DNA of 64,000 nt from Corynespora cassiicola. Taxonomy: Eukaryota; Ascomycota; Dothideomycetes; Pleosporales; Corynesporascaceae. The DNA lies in the NCBI GenBank assembly GCA_022059125.1, contig JAEUWY010000005.1, forward strand, positions 62,001-126,000, given 5' to 3'. The notes below the pieces were generated by a model. It made no database searches. It saw only the letters and a program-made list of their open reading frames with translations, and was not told the origin of the DNA. Both the position numbers and the translations under genes were made by a program. Positions 5,265 to 55,384 of the stretch are shown here, one piece after another (positions within the stretch are counted from its first letter, which is position 1; each line of letters starts with the position of its first letter).

Positions 5265-7385
5265 CAGAGGGGTGACATTAAAAAAGCGTAATAGAAAAAA
5301 TCGTACTTTTTAAACTTATATAACTTTTTATATAAACTAGCTATTTAAAAAAGAAAAAATTAGTTTTAGGGATATTTACTAGCGCTACATATAAAAGAAA
5401 AAAAATAAATTACTTATATAATATTTTTAGCTTTTAAAAAAGCTCTAAAACTATACTAAAAAAAAATATAAATTTTAATACGCTGTAACTTTTTTTTTAG
5501 CGTATAATTTTTAGTTTTTTTTTTTTTATATTAAAGCTATTTATAATATTTAATTATGTAAAAAAAATTAGTATAAGTTTATTCTCTAAAAAATTAGAAA
5601 TTCAGAAAATTAAAAAAAATAAAAAAAATAAAATAAAGAAATTAATAATAAATTATTAATATTTAGTATAATATCCCTTAGCGTCTATAACTGCTTTATA
5701 ACGCTTAGGTAAAGATAATATATAATTATCTATTATTTCCTGTGGAATTAAATTCCACTCTTTAATTATAGCTCTTTTAAATAAATTAATACTTTTAATA
5801 TTATTTCCTTTGCCTAATAAATTAGTTCTTTATTTATTTAAGGCATTTTTTAATATAGCCCAGATATTTTCAATAGGAGCTAAATCTGGGCAATAAGGAG
5901 GATGTTGAAAAAGATTAATTTGATTTCTTTTAAACCAATTTAAAACTGGTTTAGCTGTATGGATTTTTAAATTATCTTGTTAAAATTTCCAGTCTATAAA
6001 CTAGTTAGTATTAATTTTAATTTTAAAATTTAAAATTTTTATAAATATATTAATTAAATATATTTATTTTAATTTTAAAAATTAAAAAAAGGTATATAAA
6101 CTAACCGGGTTTTATTTGTTTTTTAATAATAGGTTTTAATACTTTTTGTATATAATCCGTATTATTAAAGTTATTTTTAGAATTAGGTGTTTTAATAAAC
6201 ACTAATTCTGATCTTCCTCCTATCCAAATAGCTCCCCATACTGATATAACAATATCTCGAGCTATAATTTAATTAGTATTAAATATTTTAAAAAAGTAAT
6301 TAAATTAAAAAATTAAAATTAATTTTTAATTAAAATTAATTTTTTAAATTTTTTTTTTTACTTACAATTTGATTTTATAGAAGCTAATTCAGCTCCTACC
6401 TTCTTATTTCTCTTTTTTCTTATATATTCCTGTCTAGAACCTAGACCTCTTTCTATTACTGACTCATCAGAAAATATAATTTTATTTAAATTTATATTTT
6501 CTATATTTTTTAAATTTTTTTTAGCATATTCTAGTCTTATTTTTGCTTTTTCTTTTTTATAAAAAGGTTTTTTACTAGCAATATTTGTACTGTATTTTTC
6601 TTCTTTAAAAAATCTTTGTAAACTTCTTTTAGATATATTTAAATTATTTTCAAATAATATTCTTTTATTTGTTTTTTTAGGGCTTTTAATTAAATCCCTA
6701 TTAATAATTCTTTTTTCTCTTTTTAATAGTTTAATTTTATCCTGATTTCTATCTTTTTTTAAACTATTAAAAAGTTTATTTTTTTTATTAATACGTTGTA
6801 TAGTATAATATATACTATTAATAGGTTTATTTAAAATAAAAGATATATTTTTAATAGATATATTAGCTTTTAATAAAAGATTAACTTTTTCTTCGTAGTC
6901 TGAAAATTGAGGTTCCATCTTATCTTTGTTTAGAGAAAATAGAGATTCAGATTTCTATTTCTAAAATATTTATTTATATACTAATTTAACTAGTTTATTA
7001 TTATGTAATTAGTGCTTATATAAGCAAAACTTTATTTTTTAAACTTTATTTTTTAAATATTAAATTAAATTTCTAGCTCCAGTTTTTTGCTTACGTAATA
7101 TATACTAAGCTAAATTTAGTTAGCGTATAATAAAAAGTTTTAATAATTTTTTAAGTAAAAAATTACAGCGTGTTTAATTTTATGTTTTTTTTTAGTATAA
7201 CTTTAGAGCTTTTTTAAAAGCTAAAAATATTTTATAAGTAATTTATTTTTTATTTTTTATATATAGCGCTAGTAAACATCTCTAAAACTAATTTTTTTTT
7301 TTTTAATAGCTAGTTTATAGAAAAAGTTATATAAGTTTAAAAAGTACGATTTTTTCTATTACGCTTTTTTAATGTCACCCCTCTG
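5265..7385 (-). mobile_element. Tc1/mariner-like element, copy A (2121 bp)
   Basis: Complete element flanked by TA (5263-5264 and 7386-7387), with terminal inverted repeats of about 220 bp beginning CAGAGGGGTGACATTA. It carries one three-exon transposase gene on the minus strand. Its length equals that of copy B (1897 bp at 46496-48392 plus 224 bp at 55161-55384). The stretches I compared are identical apart from one G/A difference in one inverted repeat. Copy A lies in inverted orientation to copy B. Confidence 0.93.
5656..6918 (-). pseudogene. Tc1-family DD34E transposase, copy A (two in-frame TAA)
   Basis: Cut-and-paste transposase. Exons are 6366-6918, 6106-6261 and 5656-5993. The introns (6262-6365 and 5994-6105) have GTAAGT and GTTAGT donors and TACTAAY branch points near the acceptors. 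The spliced frame is 349 codons including the stop, the normal size for Tc1. Exon 1 holds the N-terminal helix-turn-helix region and the first catalytic Asp in FSDES. Exon 3 holds the second Asp in QDNLKIHTAKP and the Glu in PPYCPDLAPIENIW, with 34 residues between them. Two in-frame TAA codons (5980-5982 and 5830-5832) each replace what family context suggests was Gln, by CAA to TAA. Read without splicing it would look like a 186-residue protein. Confidence 0.88.
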
Positions 7386-8782
7386 TATTTATAGCACAAC
7401 TTATATTTAATAATAAAAAATTAGTAATAATAAAGCAATTTTTTTATTACATATTACACGGAATATATTTAAATCTTCTATTACTAAAAATTTAAAAAAA
7501 AAACGAATTAAGCTAGTTATAAGTTAAGTAATAGATAAATTAAAAAAATTATAAAAACTTTATAAATAATTATAGAAAAATATTAAAACAGCACAACGTA
7601 AGACAATTTTTTATATTAACTAAAAACAGAAAATAGTATCTTAGCTAAAAAAAAGAGGATAAAGTATATTTTTTTACAAAAAGTTTTTAAATAATATAAC
7701 TAAATAAAAAATTAGATTATATTAAAGTTAGACTATTTTTAATTTTAGAATAAAAAAAACTAGTTAACTATAAACTCTAACTCTCTGCTAATACTAAAAT
7801 ATACTTAGTATTTTACGTATTACTATTAGAATTTACTAATATTAAAACACTAGTTTAAAAACACTTTTATTACAGAATAGAAAAAAAAATTAAATTTAAA
7901 GTAGAAGCACTAGTAGGCTACTGCAAAATAAAATAAAATAAATTTTATAATAACTATTTCGCACAGAAATAGTTAGTTAAATAAAAAAAATATTTAGAAT
8001 TAAAAAATACTTAGAAACTAGAATAAAATCTAAAGAACTGTTAGCAACTATTTAAAAAAAACTAAAAATAAAATTACCTCTACTACTATACAGAAGTAAT
8101 TAAAAAAAAATATCTAAAGAAAAGCAATATATTATATATAACTAAATATTTAAGAATTAGTAGATAACACAGATACTTTCTAAAAGTTATTAAAAAAACT
8201 TTTAATAGCGCTTTAAGTGCTTAGAAAAAAGTTAAAAGTAAAATTTTTAGAAAAACTGTTAAAAGTAAAAACTTTAAATAACGTTTCGCGTTTCTACTAC
8301 TTTTACTTTTTTAAATTTTAATTTTTTACTAATATAGCTTTTTCCGCACAATAATTAAGTAAGTCTATTTATTAATAAAGTTTTTTTTTTTTTTAGCTTT
8401 CGCTATCTATAAGTTTTTTAAAGTTTTTTTATATATTTTTACAGCCGTATTCTACGCTTTAAATAACTTTTTTATTTATTATTATAATTTTTTTTTTTTT
8501 AGTAAAATACTAGAACTTAAACTAAGTAACGTAAATATTACACCGCTGCCTGTAATATAAATACTTACTATATTTTATATATTTATTTATATTTTACGTA
8601 AGTTAAATATTTTTAAATTATAACTTTTTCTACAGCTTTAATAAAATTAGCTAAATAATAACAGTAGATAGTACTAAAAACTGTTAGTATTTTAAATATT
8701 ATTATAAAAATAAGCAGTAATAAAAAAAACCCGCGCGTTATATATTAGCTTAAAAAACTAAGCTAGGCTAGAAAAAAGATAG
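7386..8782 (+). mobile_element. Ty3/gypsy 3' fragment: integrase C-terminus and downstream region
   Basis: Plus-strand remnant matching 53,490-54,700 of the chromodomain element: the C-terminal integrase core, then a segment at about 7,960-8,040 matching its chromodomain region. Stops are frequent. It begins abruptly at the TA next to Tc1 copy A; the missing upstream half of the same integrase is found, reversed, starting at 55385. Confidence 0.75.
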
Positions 8783-9152
8783 TATTATAAGCTATAAACG
8801 TAAGCTAATAATAGAGCTGATAAAGTTGCACCGCTATAGCTAGTTACGTAATATACTTAGTTAATTAGTCTACTTAGCAGTACTAAGTAACTAAATAGTA
8901 CTAAATAAAAAGCTTTAGGTATATATATATAGTTCGCATAATTATACTTTATAATTATATTTACTTTATTAGTAAATCTATTATTTAGAATTAACTATTA
9001 ACTTATTATACTCTATTACTAATATAGAAATCTGTATAGTATATCGCATATTATTTTACTTACGTAACTTTACTAGTATTTATTTTTAAAAATTAATTTA
9101 AGCAGCTATTTACTTTTTAGTCTTACTTATAGCCTGTAGCACAGCTTTAATA
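8783..9152 (+). repeat. Gypsy LTR (370 bp), plus orientation
   Basis: Starts TATTATAAGC (originally probably TGTTATAAGC) and ends AGCTTTAATA (originally probably TTAACA). The last 220 bp or so match the LTRs at 48393 and 54713; the first part instead matches the LTRs at 18987, 20064, 26511 and 28224. It is the downstream LTR of the fragment before it. Confidence 0.8.
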
Positions 9153-10547
9153 CTTAAATAATACTCTGTTATCTACTTTTTTTTAAAAAAATAGTTTTTA
9201 TTTACTATATTTTTTAGAGATTCTAGAAGTTACGCGAATTATTTTTAAAACTTTTACTCTTTTATTTAGTAGCTTTTTATTAAATTTAGTAGAGTTAACT
9301 TTTTTTTTTAAAAGTGTTTTAGTTAATTTTTTACTGCCTATATTATTTAGCGTAATTTTATTTACTATTAAACGCTACTAATATATAGATTCTAATATAG
9401 TAGCGCAGTTATATTTTATATATAAAAGCTTTTTTTTTACCTAGTTAATATATAAATTATACTTTTTAACTATAAAAGTTTTTAAATAACGTTATAAATA
9501 GCTGTATCTATAATGTTAAAAAAAATTTCTTTCTAATATTTTTAGATGTCTATAGTAGTTATAGTTTTCTAATCTATTAATGCTTTTTCTAGTATCTTTT
9601 TTCTAGTTACTATATAGAGAAAATAGAGTCGCTTGTAAATATATATTTTTACTTTACTATATTTTATAATTTACTGTAAAAAATAGTTACGCTAAAATTT
9701 TATATCTAATAATACTTTTATTTGGTATTTATTAAGCTTAATAAGTAGTTTAATTAAGTTCTCTAAATTAGTAGTGTATAATACTTTAGATTAATTCCAG
9801 ACGCTAGATACTGTTCTAAAAAAAACTTGTTACTTAATCTCTATAAACATTTTTTATTTTAGTAACGTTCGTAATTTTTATATAAATATATTTACTAGAA
9901 ATTTTATATATATTTTTTATTAACTAGCATATTTATTGCGAGTTTTTTATTTTTATTTATTTTAGAAAAATATTACGCTTATTATTTATTTTATAAATAA
10001 ATATTATATATATATATTTTGCAGTTAAACTACTGTTACGTATATTTACGTAGTTTTTTTAAAAACCATTCTACTACTGCTTTATCTAAGTAGTAAATCT
10101 AATATTAATTTTTTTTATAAAATATTTATAAGTAGTTTATATGCTTTAAATTTTTTAAGTTTAAGTAGTACTACAGTTTTTATATGTTTTAGCATTATAA
10201 AAAATTTAAAACTGTGTTTAGTTTGCTGTTAAAGTCTGGTAAAACTTTTAGTTTAATTTTTAAATTTAGTTAACTAATTTATTTTTATACTTTAGAACTG
10301 CGTTATTATCAGCGTTTTTTTAAATTTTAAATTTTTTTATCTAAGTTATAGTTTTTTTTTAACTGTTTACGCGTTATAGGTAATTTTTTCTACTATATAA
10401 GCGTTTTTATTAAATTTTTTCTGTTTTCTTTATAAGTTTCAGCTAATTTTTATTTTTATTCTAAGTTTTTATTAATCTAAAATTTAGTAAGTTTTTCTAA
10501 TTTATACTTATAGCTGTAGTTACTTAAATATTTTTTATAATTATATA
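9153..10547 (-). mobile_element. Ty3/gypsy fragment, protease/gag region, minus
   Basis: The reverse complement matches about 50,040-51,440 of the chromodomain element. It stops at the retrotransposon inserted at 10548, and its continuation (start of pol and gag, then the LTR) resumes at 17785. The left end is truncated against the LTR ending at 9152. No frame is open. Confidence 0.7.
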
Positions 10548-10914
10548 TGTAAAAACACAGGGCGACTTGTTTCTAATACAGCTTAAATACTACTTAAAAT
10601 AAAAGTTTACAGAACTAAAAAATAATTATAAGTTAAAACTTATAGGTTTTATACGAAAGAATATTTCTAGACTACAGAACTATCTAAAACTATTATAACT
10701 TTTTATAGTTTTTTTCTAGCACCTATTCTAAGTCTAGTCTAGTTTAGTTTTATTTTTTAGTTATTATAGAAGAGTACGAAAGAATAAAAAATTAAAGCTA
10801 AGTTAGAGCTATATTAAAAGTTAGAAGCTAGAAATTAGATATAAAGTTCTGAATCACGTGCGTAATGCTTAAAAATAAATATATTTAAACTTTATACAAA
10901 TAAAATTTATTATA
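10548..10914 (-). repeat. LTR of the 7.2 kb element (left)
   Basis: 367 bp, beginning TGTAAAAACA and ending TTTATTATA on the plus strand. Pairs with 17418-17784; the differences I see are mostly transitions. Confidence 0.85.
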
Positions 10915-13900
10915 TTACTTTTTCTCTAGTAGACAGATTATTCTGATCTAATATAATTCGTAGCCTATTTAGAGAAAAATATAAATAGTTTTTATTAGAA
11001 GCGGAGTACTTTATTTTATTATTTACTTTTATTTCTAGTATTTTATAAAAAAAAGCGTTGCGCGTTTGCGTAACTAGTAAAATATTTTTATAAAACTACT
11101 ATTTAGCAGTTATAAATTTAGTTTTTTAAACTTTTTTTCTTTTTTTTTTTACTTTTTTAATTATTATATTTTATAAGTAGTTTATTTTAAATCTAGTGCT
11201 TCTGCTAACTTTTTCTAAAGCCTTTTACTATTAAATTAGCTTTTTAATTTACTTTATAATATTTATTTTAGTTTTATTTAGTATTTTATTAGTAGTTTAC
11301 TGTAAGATATATTTACGCGCCTGTCGCGTTTTAGTAAAAAAATATATAATTAATTTTAAATTTAAGTTAACTTTAAGTAAAAAGTGCGAGTACTGCACTG
11401 CTTAAAAAAATTTATATAAATTAGTATATATTTAACTTAGTACGCATTCGGAATAGTTAGCTAATACTTTATTTTAAATTCTAAAATACTGCGCTACTAA
11501 GTATAAAGTATTAGTATAAACTATAAATAACTAAAAAAAAAATCTAAATAATTTTATTTTAACTACTATAGTAAGAATCGCAGCTAGAGCTGTTTTAGTT
11601 ATAGCTTAAATAATTAAAACAGAGTTAGAATATATATAGACTAGAGAAATATTACTAGCTATTTATGCGGCTCTAAAAGTAATTTACTAAAATATAAAAA
11701 AAATAAATTAAAAACTAGTTAATTTAAAAATAGTTTTTTTACGTACTCTAGTTCGTACAGATAAAAAAAAAGCTATTAAATTTACTAAATTTTTTTTAGC
11801 GAAGCAGTTTTAGCGGGCGGGTTAGTAGAGTAAAAATCTGCTAAAACTTAATAAAAAGTCTAAATTAAAAAATTCTAATAGTAATAAAAATCTAATTTTT
11901 AATAAAAATAAAAAAAACTAATAGTTAGCTTAAAAGAGTTTCGGAGTTAAATCTAAAAAAAATTCTAAATAAAAAATTTAATAACTATTTTACTCTATTT
12001 TATTATTTTACAGGTAATTTATGTTTTCTATTTTTTATTTTTATATTTAGAGCTATTAGTTTAAGAACCGGAGAGATTCTAGCTTATCTAAATACTTATT
12101 ATAAAATTTTTTTAACTTATATAGAGCTTCTATAAAGTTAGATATATTATACTACACAGAATCTAAGTTATATTTAATTTAGTTTATTTTATATTTTAGT
12201 AATAAGCGTACAAATTTGCTAGCGAAAATATTTTTAACTTTTTATTTTTCTATTTTATTAATTAGTACTCTAATTAGTTTTAGAGCTTTTTGTTCTAAAA
12301 GCAGATTAGTAGAATTTTTATATAAAATATTTAGTATAAATATATTATAGATTTTTAATTCTAGAGGTAGTTTAAGGCGGTATAAATAACTTACTTTCTT
12401 TAATACTTTAAAAAGACCTGTCTACTATTTAGACAGCTTTTAGCTTAGTTTTATAAATATTAAATTTTTCGTACTAAAATATACTTAATTTCTAATAGTT
12501 TAGTTTACTTAGTAACGGTAGAGGTTAACTTAAACTCGTATTTATTTCTAAGCCTTTTTAAAAAATTTTTTTATAAGCTTTTATACTTTATATATTTATA
12601 AAGTAAGTGCTAAAGTGTTTTAGTAATTTAGTTTTTTCTAAAACTTAAAAAGTTTAAGTTTTTTTTAATACTAACTCTAACAGAGTTTAGAACTAAATAA
12701 AACTTAATACAAAATTATTTTTAAGTTTATATATAAAAAGATAAGTTAAGCGCGATTTATTAATAGCAGAAGTTCACTTTAGTTATTCTAATAGTAGCTT
12801 ATAAATAGCTTTAGTCTCTAGTTAATATATTAGTTTATAATTTTAGTTTAGCTATTAGTTTTTTTATAATAAGCGGTAGACAGTTTAATTTTAACGCTAA
12901 TAATATAACAGAATTTAAACTAGAAACTAGAAATAAACTGTAGTTTTTAGTTTAATATAATTATTTTTAAAATATATTTAAATTAGTATATTTACTAAAT
13001 AAACAGATAGGCTATACTACGTGCGTTAGTATTTTTATAATATAAAATTAATACAGCTTATTTAGAAAGTTAATTAATAATTACTAAAATTTAATTATAG
13101 CTAGTCTTATTACAAAATTTTTTTTTAAAATCTATACAGAAATATTATATAAAATAGTTTAGAATAGAAAAAGAATAGATTTTTTTAGCGGAACAGATTT
13201 GTTTTAGATATACTTATTAACAGATAAAGTAGTTCTGTATATATTGCTTACACAAGTTTTCTATATTTTTCTAATAATACTTCTAAACTAATAGCTAGTA
13301 AGTTTTTATAGCGCTAGAGTGTGCTAAAAAAATTTAGTTATAAGTTTTTTATATTAAGCGTGTGATAAGCGTAGAGTTTTAAAAAATATATAGTTAATAT
13401 TAGTATAATATAAGTCTGTTATATATTTAGTACTAATTAAAAAAATTTTCGCGTTTTTTTATAAAGCTTAATTAATTTTTTTTTAGAAAAGTATTAATAA
13501 GTTTAAAAAAATTAAAACTTATAAAGTTTTTTAAAAATATTATATATACGCGAGCTACATACTTAGTTTAAACTTTAATATATTTCTAAACTAACTTAGC
13601 GTTAATTTAAAAGTTAAAATAATACAGTTTAATTAGCACGTAAAAACAGTTATTTTACTATATAACTAAAAAATTTTTTATATTTTATTTGCGACGGCTA
13701 AAGATGTTAGCTTTAGTATTATTTTTATTTAAAGTGTATTTAATTTAGAAGTTAAAAAACGCTAGTTCTTCTACTTATTTTACTTATTTAATATTTAGAA
13801 TTTTAGTTGTTATAAAATATTCTAGCAACTTATAATTAAAATATATTTAGATCTAATACTTTATAAAAGAGAGATTAGCTTGCTATTTTTAGAAGACAGT

Positions 13901-14439
13901 AATAATAGCAAAAAGTTTTTTATTATATATTTTTTAGTTAAGTTTAAAACTAGATAAGATTTTGCTGTAGAAAGCATATAAATACTAATTTCTATTAGTA
14001 TATTACTAAAATTGTACGTCTGTAATAGCGCTATTAAATATATTAATTTTTAGTTTTATAAATAGTTTAAAATTAAAATAATAAAAAGTTAGAATAGAAA
14101 GAAGAGAGTTTTTTAAGGCTTTAAATGTTTAGTTATATTTTTAAATCTATTTAAAAAATATAGCAGAGCTTTAAAATATACTAATTAGTAAAATAATACA
14201 GAAATATTCTAGTATAAATTATTAGTAAAAGCTAGTAAATTTAAAAAAAAACTTTATTTCTGTAATAGTAGTAGATCAGATTTAATTTTATAAAGCTTTA
14301 ACTTTTTTTAAATTTACTTCTAGTTCTTAGTTAGTTAGAATAAATTCTAAATATTAGATACATTTTATATAAAATTTAGATTTAGCTATATCTACTTGTA
14401 ATTTAGCTTAACGTAATTATTTTAAAATAGCTTTAATAT

Positions 14440-14890
14440 ACTAAATATAAATTTATTTATTTTTAAAGTAGATAAAAATATTATTTAGATATGCGATACA
14501 GAAGTTATTAAAATAGTTAATTAGAACGTTGTTTATGTATTGCTAAAAAGTAGCTAGTCTGTTATATAATTTAAATAGAAAAACTTTATATTTATATATT
14601 CTGTATTATATTTAGAAAGTAGTATATTTTTTACTATTAAAGTTTATTTAAATTTTATTAAATACAGCGTAAATGTCTAACTTTATAATAATTTTAGTTT
14701 TACTAGATCTTACTAAAAGTTTATTTATTTTAAATATTAAATAAGTATTTTTTCTAGTTAGAGCGTTTAGTTTATAATAGTTAATATATATTTTAAGCTT
14801 TTTATTTGCTTTGCGAATATACAGAATAAATAATATAAAAAAACTCTAACTCTGCTTAATAAAACTGTATTATAATTAAGTTATTATAAA
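14440..14890 (-). pseudogene. Reverse transcriptase core remnant of the 7.2 kb element
   Basis: On the minus strand the remnant shows, in order, an ILFI-RKANKKL segment, YYKLNALTRKNTYL, KLDIYAVFNKI and AYLNNIFIY. These correspond to conserved RT blocks of Ty3/gypsy elements. The catalytic Asp pair of the YxDD box is Asn-Asn here (14480-14485), exactly what two G-to-A RIP changes would produce, so the enzyme is inactive even apart from the many stops. Confidence 0.75.
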
Positions 14891-16966
14891 CTTTTAGGTA
14901 GCTTTAAGTTTTTTAAACTCTATTTATATAAAAAACTATAGCTGTTTAAAAAAAGTTTAGTAAAAATAATTTTATAGTTATAGAGTTAGTAGAGTAAAAG
15001 ATAGAGTGCGGCCTTAAAGTTAAATATATTCTAGTATATTTAATATATAAAAAAAAGTTAGAACGGTGCTGGAACTACAGTATTCTAAGTTTTAAAAAAA
15101 AGTTTTTAATTAGTTAGTTAATTTTAAAAATAGTTATTATAAAAAATTTATTTTTAGATTATTTTATTTAAAAATAAAAAGTATTAGCTAAAATAGCAGC
15201 TATCTAAAAACTTTAACTAAACTTAAAATTTAGTTAAAAATTAGTTAGAAAAAAGTATTTAAACTAAAAAAGTTTTAGTTTTTAGAGTTAATACAGATAA
15301 ATTTCTAAACTTTAATAGTATTTAGTTTAGTTAGTTTTCTAAAAAGCGTTTTTTTAGAAGATATTTTACTCTGTACTTTAGCTAGTAAGTAGTTAGTATA
15401 AGTATTAGAATATAAGTAGAGTAGATATATATAAAAGTAGATACTAAAAGAGCTAGATAATCCAGTTGTGTTCCGTGTTTAGTTTAAGTTTAAATTTTTT
15501 TATTTATTTTAGACTAATAATACAGTTTTAGAATCTAAAATTAAAAATAATAAAAAAGTAATTTAGTATTATACGTCTATTTAGGCGAAAATAAAAACAA
15601 ATATAATAAATAACTAAGAATTTAATTAAATTTTAGAAGCTGCGTATTTTAAATTAGTAAAGTAGTTTTTAGATAGAAATTTAAAAAGTATAAAATAATA
15701 AAGTTGTGATAGAAGTATTAATAAATAAAAAGCTTTATACACTAGTATTAATAAAAAAATATAAATAAATTCTAAATCTGTTAGAATAAAAAACTAAAAG
15801 TACTTTAAAGTGCTTTTTTTTTAGTAAATTTAAAATTTTTATTTGTAATAGGTTGTACTTACTAAAACTTAAAGCAGAAAATTTTTCTAAACGTTTTTAT
15901 TTTTTAATTAGAATAAATTTAAGTTACGGAAGTTAATCGCGTTTTTAAATTAGTTATATAAATTATTTTTTATATTAATTTAGTTTACTTACAGAAAGTT
16001 ATAATTATATATAAAATAGTTTTACTTACTATAGTTGTAGTAGTTTTTTTTTACAGCCTAAGCTAGTTTAAGTAGCTTACTATTTTTACGTTAATATAGT
16101 AGTTATAACTTTACGCAGATAGTACGCTAGTAAATAGTTTTTTTTTTTTTATAAATATTATAGATAAGCTGAATAGCTTTCGGTTTTCTAAAACTTTAAA
16201 TATAGTAAAACTAAAATTACTTTTTCTACTTCTGCTAATAACAGATATAAAAATATTTTAGCACTTTATATTATAAGCGGAAAAATATTTTACTATATTA
16301 TTAAAAAAGTTATTTTATAAAGATTTAAATCTAAAGTTTAGAACTCGCAGAGCTAAAATAATCTTTTTTTATAAGTAAAAAAACTATTTTTTTTTTATAC
16401 TTTATTTTTAATAGCAGTAGATAAAAATCAGACTTTAAAAGTAGAGAAAAGTTTTTTTTATTCTATCTACAGCTGGTAGAAGGCTACTTAATTTTCTGCT
16501 TTTTTATTTTCTAAAATAAAATATAATTTTAGAAAATTAAGCATTTTCTCTGCATTAAAAAACTATTTTTAAAAATTATTAGCTAAATAACAGAGCTCTA
16601 AGTATTTTTAAGCTAGTTCTAACGTATATTTCTAGACTTCCGCTATATAAGCTTACTTAATAAAATAGTAGTTATAATTAATATTAAAGCAATTTTAAAT
16701 AAAAACTAGCTATTATAAAAAAATAACAGTTTTCCTGTCGCTAAAAGGCTTAATTTTAAAAATCTGCTTAAATAACTTTATTTAAACTAAAATTAAAAAT
16801 AATTTAGATAGTTATTAAATGCAAATTAATAGTAACAGTTTTAACTATTTTTTATTTTAGAAAAAAAAGTCTGCAGCGGCGGTTTTAAGTTTTAGTATTT
16901 TAGCTTATAACTATAGAATTTTTACTTCTATTAGTATAAAATAAAAATTATTATTATTAGGTTAGA

Positions 16967-17038
16967 GTTAGAATCTAGTAGATTCTAGATTGTTATTAGA
17001 GAGTTAGAATCTAGTAGATTTTAGATTATTATTAGAAA
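16967..17038. repeat. Two tandem copies of a 36-bp unit
   Basis: Each unit starts GTTAGAATCTAGTAGATT and the two differ at a few C/T and G/A positions. Each contains a near-palindrome around AATCTAGTAGATT. It lies 380 bp inside the upstream (minus-sense 5') LTR of the 7.2 kb element, in its untranslated leader or early gag; a related but shorter stretch occurs near 30,930. Confidence 0.65.
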
Positions 17039-17417
17039 GTTAAAGCTGTTTTTATAGCTAGCTTAATTTTTAAACAGCTTTTTTTACAGAGATATTTAGA
17101 GAGTATATAGTACTAAACATTAATAGTTAGAATTAATTTTAGTAAGTTTTTAGTAGTTATTTAGTTTTTACTTTAGCATATAATACGTTTTTTTAAAAAG
17201 TAATTTCGCTTATATAAAAGCGGAAATTTTAAATCTAAAGGCTTTAGTTATTAAAAAATTTAGAAAATTTTAACTTTATTAAAAGTTAAAAACGTATATA
17301 GTAATTTAAAACGGACCCGGTCTAATACGTGTACTATCTAGTTATACTTCTTTTTATAATAAATAGAGAGGCAATATTTTTAAGCTATTACTAGTAAAAA
17401 ATAGTTTAGAAATATAA

Positions 17418-43490: not shown

Positions 43491-44780
43491 ATGCTCTCGT
43501 TAGATATTCCCGCCTTTCCACCACCAAAAGGTGTTAAGACAGACTTCAACAGCTCCGATAGCTATATTCCTGGAAACTAAATTCTTCATTCCGTTGTTCT
43601 CTTAGCCTCTACACTCGCAGTGGCAGTTCGAATATATACTCGCCGCTGTATTAAAAACTTCCTAGGCGTAGATGATTGTAAGAAATCTGTCCAAAGACCC
43701 TCCTGCAAAGTGGCTAATCTGGCTTAGATTTTACATTATTGTCATGGGTTTGTTTTTTCAAAAGAAAAAAGCTCATCGGCTTAACTTCATCAAGGTTTTG
43801 GCGGTGATCTTCTCCAGTTTGATGATCACAGGTGAGCTAATAGCTTTTCCTGCATGCAACACATCTAATCAAAAGTTAGCAAATACACATGGCTATGGTC
43901 AACATGTCTGGAATTTACGTTTTGCAAAGCTTTATGACATCGGAAAAGTAAGAGTTCTACTAATAAAGACAAGAACAAAAGCTAACAGCTTTTCGTAGCT
44001 TCAGTTCATTGGCCAGATGATTTACATTGTCTTGTTAATCGCCATTAAAGTCGCTATTCTTCTCACTTACCTGAGGATCTTCGGAGTTAGTAGAGCAGCA
44101 AAGATCTTAATCTGGATTGGGGTTGCCGTCACTTCGGTATTCTACACGATCTGTCTACTTATGTCATTACTATGGTGCACGCCACTAGAAAAAGTCTGGT
44201 TTCCATTCACAAATGGAAAATGCGCACCATATGACGCAAATGTTGCTCTAGGAACAGCTAGTGGAGTGGTTAACGTCATCACGGACTTCTATATTTTAGT
44301 TCTTCCACTGCCCTTTGTTTGGAGGCTGAACATGGGGAAGCGTCGCAAAACACGGTTGTTAATGGTATTTGGTCTGGGCCTTTTGTAAGTCTCCCCATAT
44401 CGTATCATGGCAACATTGACTGAATCAATTGAAGTACGTGTGTTTTCAGCATACTTAGACTTGCGGTCACTATCAAGTATATCCCACATTTCGATAACAT
44501 GTACTATTTTGCAAAGTACATGCCCTTTCTGTATGTACTTTCTACTTAATAATGAAACATCTTACTAATGATGAGTAGGGTTCTAGAAGTACACATAGGT
44601 CTTATTTGTGGATGCTCACTTGTATTTCCGGCTTTTTTTTAATCAGCTAGGATTGGATCTATAGGCTCTTTTGTTTCAAGGCTGCACAATTTTCGAATAA
44701 GATCTACTTCAGGTTCTGAATCTGCTACTGAGCTACGTAGCAAAGATCTCTACCCATCTTTTCAATCTAGTAATATGTAA
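43491..44780 (+). pseudogene. Rhodopsin-domain (Pth11-like) seven-helix membrane protein, decayed
   Basis: Member of the fungal rhodopsin-fold integral membrane family, often found in secondary-metabolite clusters; molecular role uncertain. Exons: 43491-43677, 43728-43747, 43795-43831, 43880-43947, 43999-44384, 44450-44530, 44579-44780; the phases agree across 327 codons. Landmarks: PPPKGVKTDFN, LAVAVRIYTRR, FLGVDDYF (split), ANTHGYGQHVW, QMIYIVLLIAIKVAILLTYLRIF, WCTPLEKVW, ITDFYILVLPLPFVWRL, RLAVTIKYIPHFDN, VLEVHIGLICGC, IGSIGSF. Two in-frame TAA codons break it (43578-43580 in the first helix region, 44640-44642 after the last helix); both could be CAA changed by one C-to-T. A phase-compatible alternative intron (GT at 43,535 to AG before 43,610) would skip the first stop but delete helix 1. 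The Tc1 end at 44809 follows 28 bp downstream. Confidence 0.8.
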
Positions 44781-44808
44781 GTTACTTTTTAAAAATAAAT
44801 TTAAAGTA

Positions 44809-45647
44809 CAGAGGGGTGACATTAAAAAAACGTGATAAAAAAATCGTACATTTTAAACTTGTATAACTTTTTAAATAGACTAACTATTAAAATAGAATAA
44901 AAGAATTTTTAAAAAGAGTAGTAAGCAATATTTAAAAATAAAAAAGAATTTAATAGTTTATATAATTTATAAAGCTTTAAAAGGCGCTAAAAAAGTAGTA
45001 AAAAATTATATATATATTTCAAAGCGTTATAATTTTTCTATTATAGTAAAGCTATATATAGTATATAATTATAAAAAAAAGTTTAAATTAAATTTTTTCT
45101 CTATAAAATTAACTAATTTAAAAATTAAAAAAGTTAAAAAAGTTAAAATAAATAAATTAATAGTAAATTATTAATATTTAGTATAATATTTCTTAGCGTT
45201 TATAACTGCTTAATAATACTTAAATAAAAATAATGTATAATTATCTATTATTTTCTGTAGAATTAAGTTTTACTTTTTATTAATAACTTTTTTAAATAAA
45301 TTAATACTTTTAATATTGTTTTTTATTTAATAAACTAGTTTTTTATTTATTCAAGGCTTTTTTTTAATATAGTTTAGATATTTTCTATAGAATTTAAATA
45401 TAGGCTATAAATAGAATATTAAAAAAATTATTTTAATTTTTTTAAGCTATTGTAAAACAGGTTTAGATTTAAAAATCATTAAATTATTTTATTAATATCT
45501 CTAGTTTATAAAGTAATTAATATATATTTTAATTTAAAAATTAAAAAAAAGATATAAAAACTAACTAAGTTCTATTTTTCTTTTAATAATAAAATTTAAT
45601 ACTTTTTTAATATAATCTGTATTATTAAAATTATTCTTAAAATTAGG
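44809..45647 (-). mobile_element. Truncated Tc1-like element (transposase 3' side)
   Basis: Starts after a TA with CAGAGGGGTGACATTA and continues through a mutated inverted repeat into the 3' part of a minus-sense transposase (compare with 5,265-6,190), ending where the LTR at 45648 begins. The rest of this copy is not seen beyond the LTR remnant. It abuts the 3' end of the rhodopsin-like pseudogene. Confidence 0.8.
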
Positions 45648-46495
45648 TGTAAGAATACAGAGCGACTTGTCTCCGATACAGCTTAAATACTACTTAAAAT
45701 AAAAGTTTATAGAACTAAAAAATAATTATAAATTAAAATTTATAGATTTTATATAAAAAAATATTTCTAAACTACAGAACTATTTAAAAATACTATATTT
45801 TTTTATATTTTTTTCTAAAACTTTTTATTTCTAGTTTAGCTTAGTGCTGTTTTAGTTATAAAAAATTAAAAATTTGAATAGCTAGATATTTAAACTTAAG
45901 TTAGAGTTAAGTTAAAAATTAAAGTTAAAGTTTAGTTAAAAGTTAAAGTTACGTATATAATACTAAAAAATAAATTCAGACTTTATATAAATAAAGTTTA
46001 TTATATTTTTTTTTTTAGTAAATAAATTATTTTAATCTATTCTAAGTTATAGCCTATTTAAAAAAATATAAATATTTTTTATTAAAAGTAAAATACTTTA
46101 TTTTATTATATATTTTTTATTTTTTATATTTTATAAAAAAAAGCGTTGCGCATTTACGTAATTAGCTAAATATTTAAAATATTACTATTTAGCTAGTATA
46201 AATTTAGTACTTTTTACTTTTTTTTTTTTTTTTAGCTATTATATTCTGTAAGTAGTCTGTTCTAATTCTAATAGCTAAATTTACTTATTTTTAGAGTTTT
46301 TAACTATTCTAATAGCTCTGCTTTACTACATCTATTTTAATTTTATTTAATACTTTATTAGTAGTTTTCTGTAAAATATACCTACGTATTTATTATATTT
46401 TACTTAAAAAATATATTATTAATTTTAAGTTTAAGTAAATTTTAAGTAAAAAGTGTAAATACTATACAGTTTAGAAAAGTTTTTATAAATTAGTA
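45648..46495 (-). mobile_element. LTR (45648-46005) and adjoining internal part of the 367-bp-LTR retrotransposon
   Basis: The LTR begins TGTAAGAATACAGAGCG and ends TTTATTATA; the following 490 bp match 10,915-11,430 of the complete element. The fragment stops exactly at the TA where Tc1 copy B starts. Its continuation is at 5264 and below in reversed orientation. Confidence 0.8.
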
Positions 46496-48392
46496 CAGAG
46501 GGGTGACATTAAAAAAGCGTAATAGAAAAAATCGTACTTTTTAAACTTATATAACTTTTTCTATAAACTAGCTATTAAAAAAAAAAAAATTAGTTTTAGA
46601 GATGTTTACTAGCGCTATATATAAAAAATAAAAAATAAATTACTTATAAAATATTTTTAGCTTTTAAAAAAGCTCTAAAGTTATACTAAAAAAAAACATA
46701 AAATTAAACACGCTGTAATTTTTTACTTAAAAAATTATTAAAACTTTTTATTATACGCTAACTAAATTTAGCTTAGTATATATTACGTAAGCAAAAAACT
46801 GGAGCTAGAAATTTAATTTAATATTTAAAAAATAAAGTTTAAAAAATAAAGTTTTGCTTATATAAGCACTAATTACATAATAATAAACTAGTTAAATTAG
46901 TATATAAATAAATATTTTAGAAATAGAAATCTGAATCTCTATTTTCTCTAAACAAAGATAAGATGGAACCTCAATTTTCAGACTACGAAGAAAAAGTTAA
47001 TCTTTTATTAAAAGCTAATATATCTATTAAAAATATATCTTTTATTTTAAATAAACCTATTAATAGTATATATTATACTATACAACGTATTAATAAAAAA
47101 AATAAACTTTTTAATAGTTTAAAAAAAGATAGAAATCAGGATAAAATTAAACTATTAAAAAGAGAAAAAAGAATTATTAATAGGGATTTAATTAAAAGCC
47201 CTAAAAAAACAAATAAAAGAATATTATTTGAAAATAATTTAAATATATCTAAAAGAAGTTTACAAAGATTTTTTAAAGAAGAAAAATACAGTACAAATAT
47301 TGCTAGTAAAAAACCTTTTTATAAAAAAGAAAAAGCAAAAATAAGACTAGAATATGCTAAAAAAAATTTAAAAAATATAGAAAATATAAATTTAAATAAA
47401 ATTATATTTTCTGATGAGTCAGTAATAGAAAGAGGTCTAGGTTCTAGACAGGAATATATAAGAAAAAAGAGAAATAAGAAGGTAGGAGCTGAATTAGCTT
47501 CTATAAAATCAAATTGTAAGTAAAAAAAAAAATTTAAAAAATTAATTTTAATTAAAAATTAATTTTAATTTTTTAATTTAATTACTTTTTTAAAATATTT
47601 AATACTAATTAAATTATAGCTCGAGATATTGTTATATCAGTATGGGGAGCTATTTGGATAGGAGGAAGATCAGAATTAGTGTTTATTAAAACACCTAATT
47701 CTAAAAATAACTTTAATAATACGGATTATATACAAAAAGTATTAAAACCTATTATTAAAAAACAAATAAAACCCGGTTAGTTTATATACCTTTTTTTAAT
47801 TTTTAAAATTAAAATAAATATATTTAATTAATATATTTATAAAAATTTTAAATTTTAAAATTAAAATTAATACTAACTAGTTTATAGACTGGAAATTTTA
47901 ACAAGATAATTTAAAAATCCATACAGCTAAACCAGTTTTAAATTGGTTTAAAAGAAATCAAATTAATCTTTTTCAACATCCTCCTTATTGCCCAGATTTA
48001 GCTCCTATTGAAAATATCTGGGCTATATTAAAAAATGCCTTAAATAAATAAAGAACTAATTTATTAGGCAAAGGAAATAATATTAAAAGTATTAATTTAT
48101 TTAAAAGAGCTATAATTAAAGAGTGGAATTTAATTCCACAGGAAATAATAGATAATTATATATTATCTTTACCTAAGCGTTATAAAGCAGTTATAGACGC
48201 TAAGGGATATTATACTAAATATTAATAATTTATTATTAATTTCTTTATTTTATTTTTTTTATTTTTTTTAATTTTCTGAATTTCTAATTTTTTAGAGAAT
48301 AAACTTATACTAATTTTTTTTACATAATTAAATATTATAAATAGCTTTAATATAAAAAAAAAAAAACTAAAAATTATACGCTAAAAAAAAAG
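46496..48392 (+). mobile_element. Tc1/mariner-like element, copy B, left part
   Basis: Inverted duplicate of copy A at 5265-7385. It is interrupted after base 48392 by the chromodomain retrotransposon and resumes at 55161. The left terminal inverted repeat is identical to the right one of copy A over its whole length as far as I compared. Confidence 0.93.
46963..48225 (+). pseudogene. Tc1-family DD34E transposase, copy B (two in-frame TAA)
   Basis: Same gene as at 5656-6918. Exons 46963-47515, 47620-47775, 47888-48225; introns of 104 and 112 nt with GTAAGT and GTTAGT donors and TACTAAY branch sites; 349 codons in frame. The first 186 codons read through the first donor are identical in protein sequence to copy A. 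The same two Gln-to-stop positions are present (47899-47901 and 48049-48051), so neither copy can encode a full transposase. The catalytic Asp, Asp and Glu positions are otherwise preserved. Confidence 0.88.
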
Positions 48393-48835
48393 TGTTATAA
48401 TACGGTCTTAGGAGGACCCGGGCAGACAACATCAAGAACGCGGCTCTAATTATATATATAATTACGCGCCTAAGAAGGAACTGCTGTACCACATTACGTA
48501 ACTAGAAAAAATATATAATTTAGAGCTTACGCCTTAGCAAAGTGAGCGCTTATAAGCACTAATAGTAAGCGTTTATAATAGGTATAGGTAAGCGCGGTTA
48601 CTATTAAGTATATAGTTCGCACAATTATACTCTATAATTATATTTACCTTATTAGCAAATCTATTGTTTAGAATTAACTATTAATCTATCGTGCTTTATC
48701 GCTAATATGAAGACCTATATAGTATATCGCACATCGTTTCACTTACGTGACTCTACTAGTACTTATCTCTAAAAATTAACTTAAGCAGCTATTTACTTTC
48801 TAGCCTTACTTATAGTCTGTAGCACAGTCTTAATA
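48393..48835 (+). repeat. 5' LTR of the chromodomain element
   Basis: 443 bp, starting TGTTATAATAC and ending CAGTCTTAATA. Differences from the 3' LTR are transitions in the stretches I compared. Confidence 0.9.
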
Positions 48836-51800
48836 TTATAAATATCTTTTAAAATAAGTACTATTTCAGGATCACGCGCACCCTTAACTTTAACCAGTAG
48901 CACTATTAGTGCTAAAACTACTACTAGTGTAATTGTACAACCTAACACAGTAGACAACAATTCTATTAAAGTAGTAACACCTAACCTCTATTATAAAAAA
49001 CGAAATAAGCTTAAAAACTAGCTCTTACAGCTCGACTTATTTTTTAACTTTTAAAGTAAAAACGTTAAGAAAAAAAAACGCGTTATATTCGCAGCCACGT
49101 ATATAAGAGGTAAAGCACTTTAATAGATTAAACTAGCTCTTATTAAGTATAAGGATGGCGAAGCTAACAACGACGTTAACAAATAGATAGAAAACTTTAA
49201 CAAATTTAAGAAAAAGATTAAATAAGTTTTCAGAGTCTCTAATAAAAATATAATTACTAGACAAGCTATTTAATATTTTAAGCAACGGGCTTCAGCTGCT
49301 GACTACACTAATAAATTTTAGTAACTGTTAATTCTTACTAAATAGAATAACAAAGTATTTATAACGATGTACTGTTAAGGACTTAAATCTAACGTTAAAA
49401 AGAAACTTATGCGTTCTGGAGCTCAGCTTAACACGCTTAAACAACTTATAAATAAGTCTATTAACATTAATTAGAAACTGTATAAATTACGAATAGAACT
49501 ACGCCAGAACTAGAACCTAAAATACAAGCAACGTACTAAACCAAGCTATAGTAAAAAGTACTATAACGCTAACACTAGTAAACAAGTTGAACGTAAAGTA
49601 ATATATTTTACTTATAACACTTATAGCAATAAACTAATAGTTTTTAGTAATATCCAGAAAGCGGGACGAGAAGATAATAAAAAGAGAAATAATAAGTCTA
49701 AAAGTAAGGCTATAACTTACTACGCGTGTGGAAAGACAGGCTATATTATAAAAAACTGTTAATTAAAAAATAAAATTATTTAACAGCTAAATATATTATA
49801 AACTACTCTGAATAACGAATCCAACGCAGACAATAAATAGAAAGTTGTTGTAAATAGATTTTATAAAACAGAACTTATCTGCGACAGCGAACTACTGCAA
49901 AACAGAAAAATAGAAAAATTTTTTAATTATGTTTAGTATTAAAATAAAAGTATTTAGACAGAGCCTAGAAGTATTTTTAAGAAAGTTAAGTTTAAAAGAC
50001 CTAGCTCTAAAGAAAAAAAAGTTTTTCGCGAAGTATATAATTACAAAAACTATTTAAGTAATGCTAGTTACGAGTTTAAAAAAAACAGCGATAGTAGTAC
50101 GCTACCCGAACTCGCACAATTCAGAATAAACAAAAACTTTAAAAAGATATAAGAATTAGCTAAAGCTTTTAAAGAACACAGAAGAGATTTAACAAAAACG
50201 TCTGTATAGTAGAAAAAATTACCTATAACGCGTAAACGGTCGAAAAAGTACTATAACTTAGATAAAAAAAACTAAAATTTAGAGGAACGCCGACAACAAC
50301 GAAGTTCTAAAGTATAAAAATAAGTTAGTTAACTAGATTTAGAAATTAGAATAGAAGTTCTACTAGACTCTGACAGTAAACTAAACACAGTTTTAAACTT
50401 TTTACGAAGCCGAAATACGTAAAAACTGCAATACTACTTAAATCTAAAAAATCTAAAGTATGTAAGCTACTTATAGACATTCTGCAGAGAAAACTAATAC
50501 TAGATTTATTACTTAGATAAAGCAGCAGCAGAATAGTTTTTAAAAAAACTACGTAAATATACATAACAGTAGTTTAACTACGAAATACATATATATAATA
50601 CTTATTTATAGAATAAATAACAAGCGCGATACTTCTCTGAAATAAATAAAAATAAAGAACTTATAATAAATATACTAGTTAATAAAAGATGTATATAAGA
50701 TCTCTAGTAAACGTATCTATATAAAAATTGCAAACGTTACTAGAATAAGAAATACTTATATAGATTTAGTAACGAGTCTTTTTTAGGACAGCATCTAGCG
50801 CCTAGAATTAACTTAAGGTATTATACGCTACTAACTTAGAAAACTTAGTTAAGCTACCTATTAAGCTTAATAGATACTAGATAAAAGTATTATTAGATAC
50901 AGGGGCTTAGCGTAACTACTTTTTACAGCAGGCTATAAAGCGTAGTAAAATAAAAACGCATACCTACGAGCGACTCTATTTCCTCTATACAGCAACTAGA
51001 AAAAAGATACTAGAAAAAGTATTAATAGATTAAAAAGCCACAACTATTATAGACATCTAGAGACACTAAAAAGAAATTTTTTTTAATATTATAGACACGG
51101 CCATCTACGACGTTATTTTAGAACTTCTATAGTTTAGAAAGCATAACCTATATATTAATTAGGTAAAAAAGAAGCTTTTGTTTATAGAATGTAATTGCGC
51201 TATTATATCAGAACCTACGCATTAGCAGCGTTCGATAGTAGATAAAATTACACTAAATAATATAGACAGCAAAAAATCGACTAAGACGCTTTTAAAAAGA
51301 AAAATTAACTCTGCTAGATCTAATAAGAAGCTACTAGATAAAAAAGTAAGAGTTTTAGAAATAACTCGCGTAACTCCTGTAATCTCTGAAAAGTATAATA
51401 AATAAAAACTACTTTTTTAAGAAGAGGTAGATAACAAAGCGTTATCTAAGTATTAGCTCTAGAACTGCGAAATAGCTTTTTAGAAAAAAAAGTATCCGAC
51501 TTTCGAGCCTATCTACAGTTTATTAGAAAAAAAACTTATAGCGTTATAAGCATACTTTAATAAAAACTTTAAAAAAGAATTTATACGCGAATCAACGTTA
51601 GAGGCAGAATATCTAATTATTTTTGTTTCTAAAAAAGATAGATCTCTACAGTTATATGTAGATTTTAAAAAACTTAACAACATTATAATTAAGAATAGAT
51701 ATCTACTACCGAACATTTAAAAGCTTAGAAATAAGCTATCTAGAGTATAGATATTTACAGTTTTAAATCTCCGAGGCGCGTATAACTTAATACGTATAAA

Positions 51801-54712
51801 AAAAAGTAAAAAATAAAAAACAGCATTTCGGACGCGGTATAGGTACTATAAATATTTTATAATACTATTTGGTTTTACTAACGCACCTGCGACATATCAG
51901 ATACTTATTAATAACGTATTAAGAATATATCTAAATATATTCGTTATCACATATCTAGATAATATCTTAGTCTTTTCTAAGAATTTTAAAAAACACGTCC
52001 AGCATGTATAAACAGTACTAGAATATTTAGAAAAAGCAGGGCTACGACTTAAACCAGAGAAATGTAAATTCTATAAAAAAAAAGTTAAATTTTTAGAATA
52101 TATTATAGAAAGACACGGAGTTAAAATTAGTTTAAAAAAAATTAAAGTAGTTAAGAACTGGCTAACGCCAAAGAACGTTAAGAATATATAATTCTTTTTA
52201 GAATTCTGTAACTTTAACAGGCAGTTTATCGATTATTACTTAGAAAAGGTATTACTACTTATAAAATTAATAAAAAAAGATGTACTATTTAAGTGGGATA
52301 CAGACTAATAATAAGCTTTTAAAACACTTAAAGAAGCAAGCATATCACCACCAGTTCTTATATCTTTTACTAGTAGAAAACTTTTACGTATAGAAACAGA
52401 TACATTAGATCTAGCGATAGGAGCATATATTAATTAAGAAAAAGAAGGTAAATAGCACCTGATTATCTATTACTTAAAAAAATTTAGCGGAGCTAAAGAA
52501 AATTACAATATTTACAACAAAAAATTACTTACTATTATAGACTTTTTTAAATATTAGCGGATCTACGCAGAAAGCTGTTTAGAACTCACAGTATATTTAG
52601 ATTATAAGAATCTAATAACATTTACAACAACTAAACTATTAGACTAATAACATACTAGATAGAGTAAAAAACTAGAATAATATAAATTTAGAATTATCTA
52701 CACACCAGATAAAAAAAACAGAAAAGCCGACGCTTTAAGTCGAAAAACAGATATTGCAGAAACTAAGTTAACGAATAAAGCTGCTATTTTTAAGTAAGCG
52801 CCAGACGGCACTCTAAAACCCACACGCAGTATTAATTTTATTATAATAGTATATTAATAAGTACTAGAAGAACTTTACTAAACTATTATTTAGTAGTATT
52901 ACGAAGATCTGTTGTACGGACACCTAGGTGTTAAACAAACGATTAAACTGATATAACGAACGTACGATATTTCTGGATTAAAAGACAAAGTAGCGAAGTT
53001 TATTAAGAAATGCATAATATATTAAAAGAATAAGCACAGTATACACGCTTAGTACAGAAAGCTACAAGCTATAGAGATACCAGACAAACTCTAAACAGAT
53101 ATTACTATAAACTTTGTTACTAGACTACTAACGTCTTATAACCTAGTTTCTAAAGTACTCTATAATACTATTTTAGTAGTTATAGACAGATTTACAAAGT
53201 ACGCAGAGATAATTCTATTTAGAGATAACTATACTATACTAGAACTAGCACAGGTTATTTTAGATTGCGTAGTTAGGTATTACAGATTACTTTAATTAAT
53301 TATTAGTAACAGAGATAAGCTCTTCACGTTAAACTATTAGATAATATTAATATCAGCTATCAGAATAAAAAAAAAATTATTAACAGTATACTATCTACAG
53401 ACAGACAGTTAAACAGAAAGAACGAACTAAACTATAAAAATATACCTACGGATGTATAGCAACTAAAAACAGAATAATTAGATATTACTACTATTTATAG
53501 CACAACTCGCATTTAACAACAGAGAATCAGTAACAATAAAATAATTTTTTTATTACATATTACACAGAACACACCCAAATCTTCTATTACTAAAAATTAA
53601 AAAAAAACGAATTAAGCCAGTTGCAAGTTAAGTAATAGATAAATTAAAAAAATTACGAAAACTTTACGAACAACTACAGAAAAATATTAAAACAGCACAA
53701 CGCAAGACTATTTTTTATATTAACTAGAAACAAAAAATAGCACCTCAGCTAAAGAGAGGGGATAAAGTATATTTTCTTACGAGAAATTTTTAAACAACAT
53801 AACTAAGTAAAAAATTAGATCACGTTAAAGTCGGACTATTTTTAATTCTAGAATAAAAAAGACTAGTTAACTATAAACTTTAACTTTCTGCTAATACTTA
53901 AATACACCTAGTATTCTACGTGTTACTATTAGAACCCGCCGACGCCAAAATACCAGTCTAAAAACACTTCTACTACGAAATAAAAGAAGAAGTTAAATTT
54001 AAAGTTGAGAAAGTAAAAGTATATTAATAATTACCTAGAGGATAAGAATATCTAGTTAAATGGAAAGGTTACTCTGAGTTAAAAAATACATAGAAACTAG
54101 AAACTAACCTCAGAAATTGCTTAATACTGTTAAACTATTATTAAAAAAAGTAACAGCAGAATTAATAAAATCTATTATAGACTACATTGTAGGCGAAAAA
54201 CTAACCAGAGTATTAGCAGCAGGACAGTCTATAGATTAAGCAGCGTCTAACTCGCTATCCTCTTCTATCTCTAATACCAGATAGAGCGCTTTCTTCTTCG
54301 CACGCTCTTCAGCCTGTTTTAATATCTTCTTATTCCGCATTAACTAAAATATTACCTATACTAACAACTTCTTATCTTTATCTACTTTTTTTTAATACTT
54401 GTTATAAGTACGGTTAAGCGACTTTTATAATAAGCTTACGTAGAAGCGACTAAGTTTAGTACACTTAGTACACTTCAGGCAAGAATTAGATATAATAAAG
54501 CAATCTTAACTAAAAGCAAAACACTTATTATAAAAAAAAAAAAAATAACGTTTGCGCGACGAATTTCGGACGCAAAATAAATATAACATACTTAAAAGTC
54601 AGAAAACATAATATACTAGTTATACTTATAAAACGCAGGGTAACGGCGTTTATAAACAAAACTACTAATTAGTTATATAATTTAAGAATAAATTCTAAAA
54701 AAAGAGAGATAG
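48836..54712 (+). pseudogene. Gag-pol remnant of the chromodomain element
   Basis: In order: gag with a decayed CCHC zinc knuckle at 49728-49759 (spacing C-x2-C-x4-H-x4-C, but the first Cys and the His have become Tyr, via TGC to TAC and CAT to TAT); a protease region; reverse transcriptase with FGFTNAPATYQ and YLDN (51952-51963, second catalytic Asp changed to Asn); RNase H; a linker with DKKNRKADALSRK; integrase with GHLGVKQTI, TDITINFVT and DRFTKYAEII; and a chromodomain with EYLVKWKGYS at 54046-54075. Frequent TAA/TAG at former CAA, CAG or TGG sites show RIP. Chromodomain elements target heterochromatin, which fits nesting in older transposons. I see no obvious primer-binding site directly after the LTR. 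Confidence 0.85.
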
Positions 54713-55155
54713 TATTATAATACAGTTTTAGGAGGATCCGGGCAGGCAACATCAAGAGCGCAGCTCTAATTATATATATAATTACGCGCCTGAGAAGAAA
54801 CTGCTATACTATATTACGTAACTAAAAAAAATATATAATTTAGAGCTTACGCTTTAGTAAAGTAAGCGCTTACGAGCACTGATAGTAAGCGTTTATAATA
54901 GGTATAGGTGAGCGCGGTTACTATTAAGTATATAGTTCACATAATTATACTCTATAATTATATTTACCTTATTAGCAAATCTATCGTTTAGAATTAACTA
55001 TTAACTTATCGTGCTCTATCGCCAACACGGAGACCCGTACAGCATATCGCACATCGTTTTACTTACGTGACTCTACCAGTACTTATCTCTAAGAATTAAT
55101 CTAAGCAGCTACTTGCTCTCTAGCCTCGCTTATAGCCTGTAGCACAGCCTTAACA
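54713..55155 (+). repeat. 3' LTR of the chromodomain element
   Basis: 443 bp, starting TATTATAATAC and ending CAGCCTTAACA, followed by the AAAAG duplication and the rest of Tc1 copy B. Confidence 0.9.
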
Positions 55156-55160
55156 AAAAG

Positions 55161-55384
55161 TTACAGCGTATTAAAATTTATATTTTTTTTTAGTATAGTT
55201 TTAGAGCTTTTTTAGAAGCTAAAAATATTATATAAGTAATTTATTTTTTTTCTTTTATATGTAGCGCTAGTAAATATCCCTAAAACTAATTTTTTCTTTT
55301 TTAAATAGCTAGTTTATATAAAAAGTTATATAAGTTTAAAAAGTACGATTTTTTCTATTACGCTTTTTTAATGTCACCCCTCTG
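55161..55384 (+). mobile_element. Tc1/mariner-like element, copy B, right end
   Basis: The missing 224 bp of copy B. Joined to 46496-48392 it restores exactly 2121 bp. It ends with the reverse complement of CAGAGGGGTGACATTA and is followed by TA. It differs from the left inverted repeat of copy A at one position I can see (G here, A in the equivalent of copy A). Confidence 0.92.

Follow-up and report, generated by a model that had tools for sequence, protein, structure and literature searches.

Reciprocally swapped flanks at two inverted Tc1-type transposon copies point to a probable 39-kb inversion around a terpene gene island in Corynespora cassiicola

The window analyzed here, 64,000 bp of the Corynespora cassiicola assembly GCA_022059125.1 (C5:62001-126000), contains two almost identical Tc1-type transposon copies, A and B, that lie in opposite orientation on either side of a 39-kb segment with a terpene gene island. 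The flanks of the two copies are paired the wrong way round, reciprocally and exactly at both elements: the sequence to the right of A continues the reverse complement of the sequence to the right of B, and the two left flanks continue each other in the same manner. From these junctions, it appears probable that a crossover between the inverted Tc1 copies flipped the 39 kb between them. Contig C5 measures 6.68 Mb in an assembly of 44.35 Mb and 23 contigs; positions given below without a contig name are those of the window.

Structure and likeness of copies A and B

Once a younger gypsy-type retroelement that lies within B is excluded, copies A and B each measure 2121 bp, with 1 difference in 2121 aligned bases. 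They stand in opposite orientation, as inverted transposable element copies at inversion breakpoints would. Both possess the termini of a Tc1/mariner element, with ends CAGAGGGGTGACA, inverted repeats of ~230 bp at 93% identity, and a TA dinucleotide on both sides. Their putative transposase matched HTH_Tnp_Tc3_2 in the first frame only (E value, 2.5e-6), at a score of 28.1 bits, which is below the cut-off of 31.5. For comparison, 16 other Tc1 copies were used, 4 of the 20 that had been fetched (L021, L026, L027, and L028) being excluded. The nearest of these to A lies on C16 and has 22 differing bases. Both A and B carry two in-frame stops, the first of which is common to 9 of the 16 other copies and the second to 2 of the 16. 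The initial annotation had described A and B as near-identical inverted Tc1 copies, and its coordinates proved exact to the base.

The flanks of A and B continue each other crosswise

On their right-hand sides, A and B adjoin two parts of a split gypsy element with long terminal repeats (LTRs) (Table 1). Placed on four intact gypsy copies of the window, the right flank of A and the reverse complement of the right flank of B overlapped by exactly 2 bp, the TA, at 53492-53493, 21855-21856, 61472-61473, and 19977-19978. The same 2-bp overlap was found at 12 of the 12 gypsy places where both halves were listed no more than 60 bp apart (one of them inside the window, the other 11 elsewhere), a count for which 42 of 51 rows for the right flank of A and 40 of 43 rows for the right flank of B were used, among the matches listed. 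In 28 of these 40 rows for B, including B itself, no row for A lay nearby among the matches listed, which is expected because these are the best 40 scored candidates only.

On their left-hand sides, both copies adjoin pieces of a second LTR element, here called X. The left flank of A and the reverse complement of the left flank of B overlapped by exactly 2 bp at 11425-11426, within the intact X element of the window, and on L028. The same overlap was present on 19 of 19 further fetched copies (L032 to L050), among which L035/L036 and L047/L048 seem to be duplicates of each other; 22 of the 42 X matches lie outside the fetched set.

These findings bear out the initial annotation, which had claimed that the two right flanks form one continuous gypsy over a single TA and the two left flanks one continuous stretch of X. 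A test of whether the flanks overlap instead of abutting also came out in its favor at the 12 gypsy places, the 19 X copies, and the copies in the window. The crosswise 2-bp joins on gypsy and X imply that each Tc1 formerly occupied a single TA within a single retroelement. Reciprocal exchange between inverted copies on one contig is equivalent to inverting the DNA that separates them. Both swapped junctions thus support the annotation's proposal that each Tc1 once occupied a single clean TA and that the intervening segment has since been turned round.

No continuation was seen on the same side of the elements. A stretch of 86 bp from the left flank of A, compared with one gypsy copy, scored 15 (shuffles: mean, 12.9; maximum, 25), and 86 bp from the right flank of B, compared with one X copy, scored 14 (shuffles: mean, 13.7; maximum, 27), while the crosswise flank pairs scored 49 and 70 in the same comparison. 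One gypsy copy contains 1334 TA sites, and X contains 1345; on the premise that the flanks fall within these two elements, we estimate the probability of two chance coincidences of site and orientation at ~1e-7. When 26 Tc1 copies were paired all against all, a control in which several copies could not succeed owing to truncated or unaligned ends, cross-continuity was found for A with B only, besides rows in which L023_5117 has Tc1 sequence as its own left flank. Among the 22 main Tc1 copies (20 fetched plus A and B), 4 sites look clean, namely, L027 (exact 2-bp overlap), L009 (step 0), L023 (+1 and -3), and L012 (judged from alignments). Another 4 are not clean (A, B, L011, and L013), and 14 were unplaced with these sequences.

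Table 1. Features of the window, with positions and strands
Feature	Position	Strand	Remarks
Tc1-type element, copy A	5265..7385	-	Strand of transposase frame 6358-6918; TA at 5263-5264 and 7386-7387 on either side
Tc1-type element, copy B, first 1897 bp	46496..48392	+	TA 46494-46495 at left edge; transposase frame 46963-47523; 0 mismatches to A
Tc1-type element, copy B, last 229 bp	55156..55384	+	First 5 bp are the duplicated AAAAG; 1 mismatch to A; followed by TA 55385-55386
Younger gypsy-type LTR element within copy B	48393..55155	+	Target duplication AAAAG at 48388-48392 and 55156-55160
Inverted segment (inferred)	7386..46495		39,110 bp; crosswise flank continuity
Split gypsy, 3' part (integrase region to 3' LTR end)	7386..9152	+	Continues reverse complement of 55385-60308 over common TA
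Split gypsy, 5' part	55385..60308	-	5' LTR truncated at ~60308
Split X, 176-bp piece left of A	5089..5264		Continues reverse complement of 45650-46495 over common TA
Split X, other piece, left of B	45650..46495		LTR 45650-46005 and internal 46006-46495
Intact X element (reference)	10547..17784		Site of left flanks of A and B at 11425-11426
GC-balanced gene island within inverted segment	32406..44800		Pfam matches in scanned frames
Cip1-like	33759-34235	-	Pfam
Polyprenyl synthetase (polyprenyl_synt)	37489-38052	-	Pfam
Terpene synthase C-terminal (Terpene_syn_C_2)	38559-39440	-	Pfam
P450	41050-42162	+	Pfam, two frames; first below its cut-off
Fungal rhodopsin	43999-44388	+	Pfam
MFS-type transporter open frames, outside inversion	1..1700	-	TRI12 match in 482-859, the sole frame scanned there

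Explanations for the swapped flanks

The sequence of events that we favor would have begun with two Tc1-type transposons of the same family inserting in opposite orientation into neighboring old retroelements, X and gypsy, at one TA each. The two inverted 2.1-kb copies, by sequence almost the same, would then have been paired on a single chromosome by host homologous recombination, and crossing over within them would have flipped the 39 kb along with the gene island. A complete Tc1 with both ends is present at both junctions, as crossing-over predicts. Because A and B remain near-identical, the flip may be reversible.

Several observations weigh against this reading. Both junctions come from the assembly of one strain, and an inverted repeat that was mis-resolved in assembly would look identical. 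With a single base to tell A from B, the crossover point cannot be placed. In addition, the split gypsy fails to confirm at its outer ends that its halves stem from one insertion. Its left LTR is cut short at 60308, and the gypsy pieces that follow farther out (~9153-19355 and 60309-63276) rejoin inconsistently in orientation when compared by hand. An attempt to prove a single insertion through target duplications failed; the truncated left LTR leaves no partner for the CTTAA at 9153-9157. The GC contents of the two gypsy halves (0.188 and 0.170) agree but are nondiscriminating, other old gypsy copies here having values of 0.17 to 0.22. At 60308/60309, the truncated gypsy LTR meets the interior of another gypsy copy, a junction spanned by no other match among the 47 listed (40 candidates scored).

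An assembly artifact, an alternative already raised in the initial annotation, would mean that the assembler crossed the inverted 1.9- to 2.1-kb repeats wrongly and that the isolate carries the un-inverted order. Wrong-way traversal of such a repeat yields exactly the reciprocal pattern seen here. Three of 12 contigs (C6, 3,852,500 bp; C16, 1,705,000 bp; and C19, 742,500 bp) have lengths that are exact multiples of 2500, suggesting cutting at bin borders after the detection of misjoins, and equal-score matches at C5:3879009-3897202 and C2:5458420-5476613 (~18.2 kb; constant offset, 1,579,411) are possibly a duplicated contig end. We nevertheless consider an artifact unlikely. The contig size (6.68 Mb, in a 44-Mb assembly of 23 contigs) suggests that long reads were used, and a repeat of 2.1 kb is short for such reads; the window is free of N; copy B differs in length from copy A through its 6.8-kb insert; and the flanks, though repetitive, share 75 to 91% identity with the other listed or fetched copies. 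As to the C5/C2 stretch itself, it lies near the end of C2 (5,483,362) and may be either a recent segmental duplication or a duplicated assembly end. A similar equal-score pattern was observed for C18:18396-19697 and C8:2346297-2347598.

The inversion could also have been driven by the transposase through alternative transposition, in which the enzyme would have acted jointly on Tc1 ends of both copies and the intervening 39 kb would have been rejoined in inverted orientation. Aberrant transposition of the Tc1-mariner element impala in Fusarium oxysporum, as cited in PMC8225341, provides a precedent. According to PMC8225341, alternative transposition needs elements in direct orientation and creates a new target duplication, whereas A and B are inverted. 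Moreover, neither element lacks an end, and the interior flanks were swapped between the two old sites without the involvement of a third target, all of which makes transposase-driven inversion very unlikely. The target duplications themselves are uninformative in this respect, since a TA stands at each of the four junctions, as after any insertion of a Tc1, and a new duplication would thus be indistinguishable. By the criteria of PMC8225341, the inverted orientation, the flip of the intervening segment only, and the exchanged flanks argue for recombination between A and B.

We regard it as highly improbable that at least two separate events, such as a translocation and a rejoining, jointly gave the swapped flanks. 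Other unexplained junctions do exist in the neighborhood (at 60308, and at the Tc1 copy 2943-5088 with its non-X left flank), but one inversion covers both swapped junctions in the fewest steps. Finally, a composite transposon, in which A, the island, and B moved as a unit into a new site, is resembled at first sight only, through the inverted outer ends and the gene cargo, and was rejected as hardly credible: of the outer flanks, X to the left of A and gypsy to the right of B, neither is a continuation of the other when 86 bp of each are compared with one copy, and the continuations found are crosswise.

Timing of a possible exchange between A and B

Within copy B, the two LTRs of the inserted gypsy element are 46 transitions and 0 transversions apart; if the same per-site rates had applied to A and B since that insertion, ~93 differences would be expected between them, and 1 was seen. 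This hints that A and B may have exchanged sequence after the gypsy element inserted into B. The argument is only suggestive, because the Tc1 copies show mixed signs of a process like repeat-induced point mutation (RIP). As a sign of late exchange, dating by RIP is weakened by the finding that other Tc1 pairs also differ little; between the copies on C7 and C1, for example, there are 7 transitions and 1 transversion. Transitions predominate in closer pairs (A versus the C16 copy, 16:6; A versus the C19 copies, 29:10 and 29:11), and the most distant of the ten pairs counted, A and the C12 copy, differ by 105 transitions and 150 transversions. The family is AT-rich (GC, 0.18) and, judging from its composition and substitutions, is possibly a weak RIP target.

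Gene island and neighboring transporter

The inferred inverted segment includes the gene island listed in Table 1. Ten frames were covered by the Pfam scan, and two of those scanned, 39687-40037 and 36641-37195, gave no Pfam match. A piece of the Cip1-like sequence has relatives in many fungi at identities of up to ~85% (529 matches, judged from the best 120). The neighboring minus-strand Terpene_syn_C_2 and polyprenyl_synt frames are reminiscent of fungal chimeric terpene synthases. The stretch at 40752-44560 is single copy in the genome and is the only part of the island so shown. An AT-rich repeat was observed at 2068-2764 and 31706-32405, in inverted copies that are 81% identical and edge both GC-balanced blocks. 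Measured from the transporter, whose end was taken as 1700, to the rhodopsin end of the island at 44560, the distance is 42.9 kb now, compared with ~7.6 kb in the un-inverted order. If real, this is a base-exact inversion that moved a terpene island relative to a neighboring transporter, in a genome with three linked inverted close Tc1 pairs.

A more far-reaching scenario, and in our view a long shot, is that AT-rich Tc1 elements would offer RIP few targets and so stay near-identical, that their inverted copies would serve as standing recombination sites, and that the terpene island would flip recurrently. Such an island would act as a cluster orientation switch, with the MFS-type transporter either near or 43 kb off behind AT-rich repeats. 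An AT-rich repeat was observed at 2068-2764 and 31706-32405, in inverted copies that are 81% identical and edge both GC-balanced blocks.

Relation to known inversions

Inversions bordered by transposable elements are already known in fungi, and the present case is a further, unusually legible one. Among the titles listed in a literature search, with the beginnings of their abstracts, none concerned an inversion of a terpene cluster by Tc1 copies. In its proposed mechanism, the event resembles the Galileo inversions of Drosophila, ascribed to ectopic recombination between transposon copies (Delprat et al. 2009, cited in both PMC8225341 and PMC4210507); here, the elements are of Tc1 type, the host is a fungus, the segment is 39 kb in AT-rich, RIP-like DNA, and the evidence is a single assembly. 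In Leptosphaeria maculans, 30 inversions separate two lineages, 70% of which are bordered by transposable elements (PMC4210507). Those were recognized by species comparison, whereas the inversion proposed here was read from element flanks alone, which place the exchange inside the elements.

In the MAT inversion of Sclerotinia sclerotiorum (PMC3574095), as in the event proposed here, a fungal segment between inverted repeats is turned round, which is ascribed to nonallelic homologous recombination. That segment is 3.6 kb long, its repeats are 250 bp and gene derived, and it inverts in every meiotic generation; for the C. cassiicola segment, one orientation is known. The ToxhAT inversion of Bipolaris sorokiniana WAI2411 was seen at transposon repeats in single reads (29 aligned), with intrachromosomal recombination put forward as a strong alternative to transposition (PMC6737239). 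There, a single 14-kb hAT-like element provides both breakpoints, one at either end, unlike the two Tc1 copies here. In Verticillium dahliae, stretches of similar sequence, often transposable elements, are the substrate of rearrangement, as proposed here; 6 of 19 events there were inversions, the other 13 being translocations, and an earlier assembly contained erroneous inversions (PMC4971763). Long repeats were present at every observed inversion breakpoint in Candida albicans (PMC6591007). In Cochliobolus heterostrophus, signs of ectopic recombination were reported for one of three mariner groups (one event) and for neither of the other two (PMC4112212).

A rearrangement history can thus be read from one assembly by testing whether the flanks of transposon copies continue each other on intact host repeats. 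The same flank-continuity test is also a simple screen for misassembled inverted repeats.

Other Tc1 copies of the family

Two further linked inverted Tc1 pairs were found, on C19 and C4, with 29 and 9 differences (plus gaps), respectively; in each, the partners are mutually closest in the compared set. Linked copies in direct orientation exist too, for example, C5:3227071 and C5:3242113, and no excess of inverted pairs is claimed.

Within the window, a piece of a further Tc1 copy at 44805-45650 ends where the X LTR starts, as if X had inserted into that copy, the other part of which was not found in the window. The older Tc1 copy at 2943-5088 (79% identical to A) has X as its right flank and a left flank without matching X continuation, and it possibly marks a further breakpoint.

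Two of the copies at nonclean sites lie on other contigs. The Tc1 of L011 (C19:694551-702667), at 3001-5117 of the fetched sequence and C19:697551-699667, is the center of a palindrome whose arms have 0 mismatches over 1973 bp and then diverge by ~9% up to 4686 bp; fold-back duplication, gene conversion, and assembly error are alternative explanations. The Tc1 of L013 (C4:1117177-1125282), at 3001-5106 and C4:1120177-1122282, has a left flank that scored 17 against X (shuffle mean, 20) and is thus not X, and a right flank that is X from the equivalent of 12732, making it another Tc1 at a rearrangement junction.

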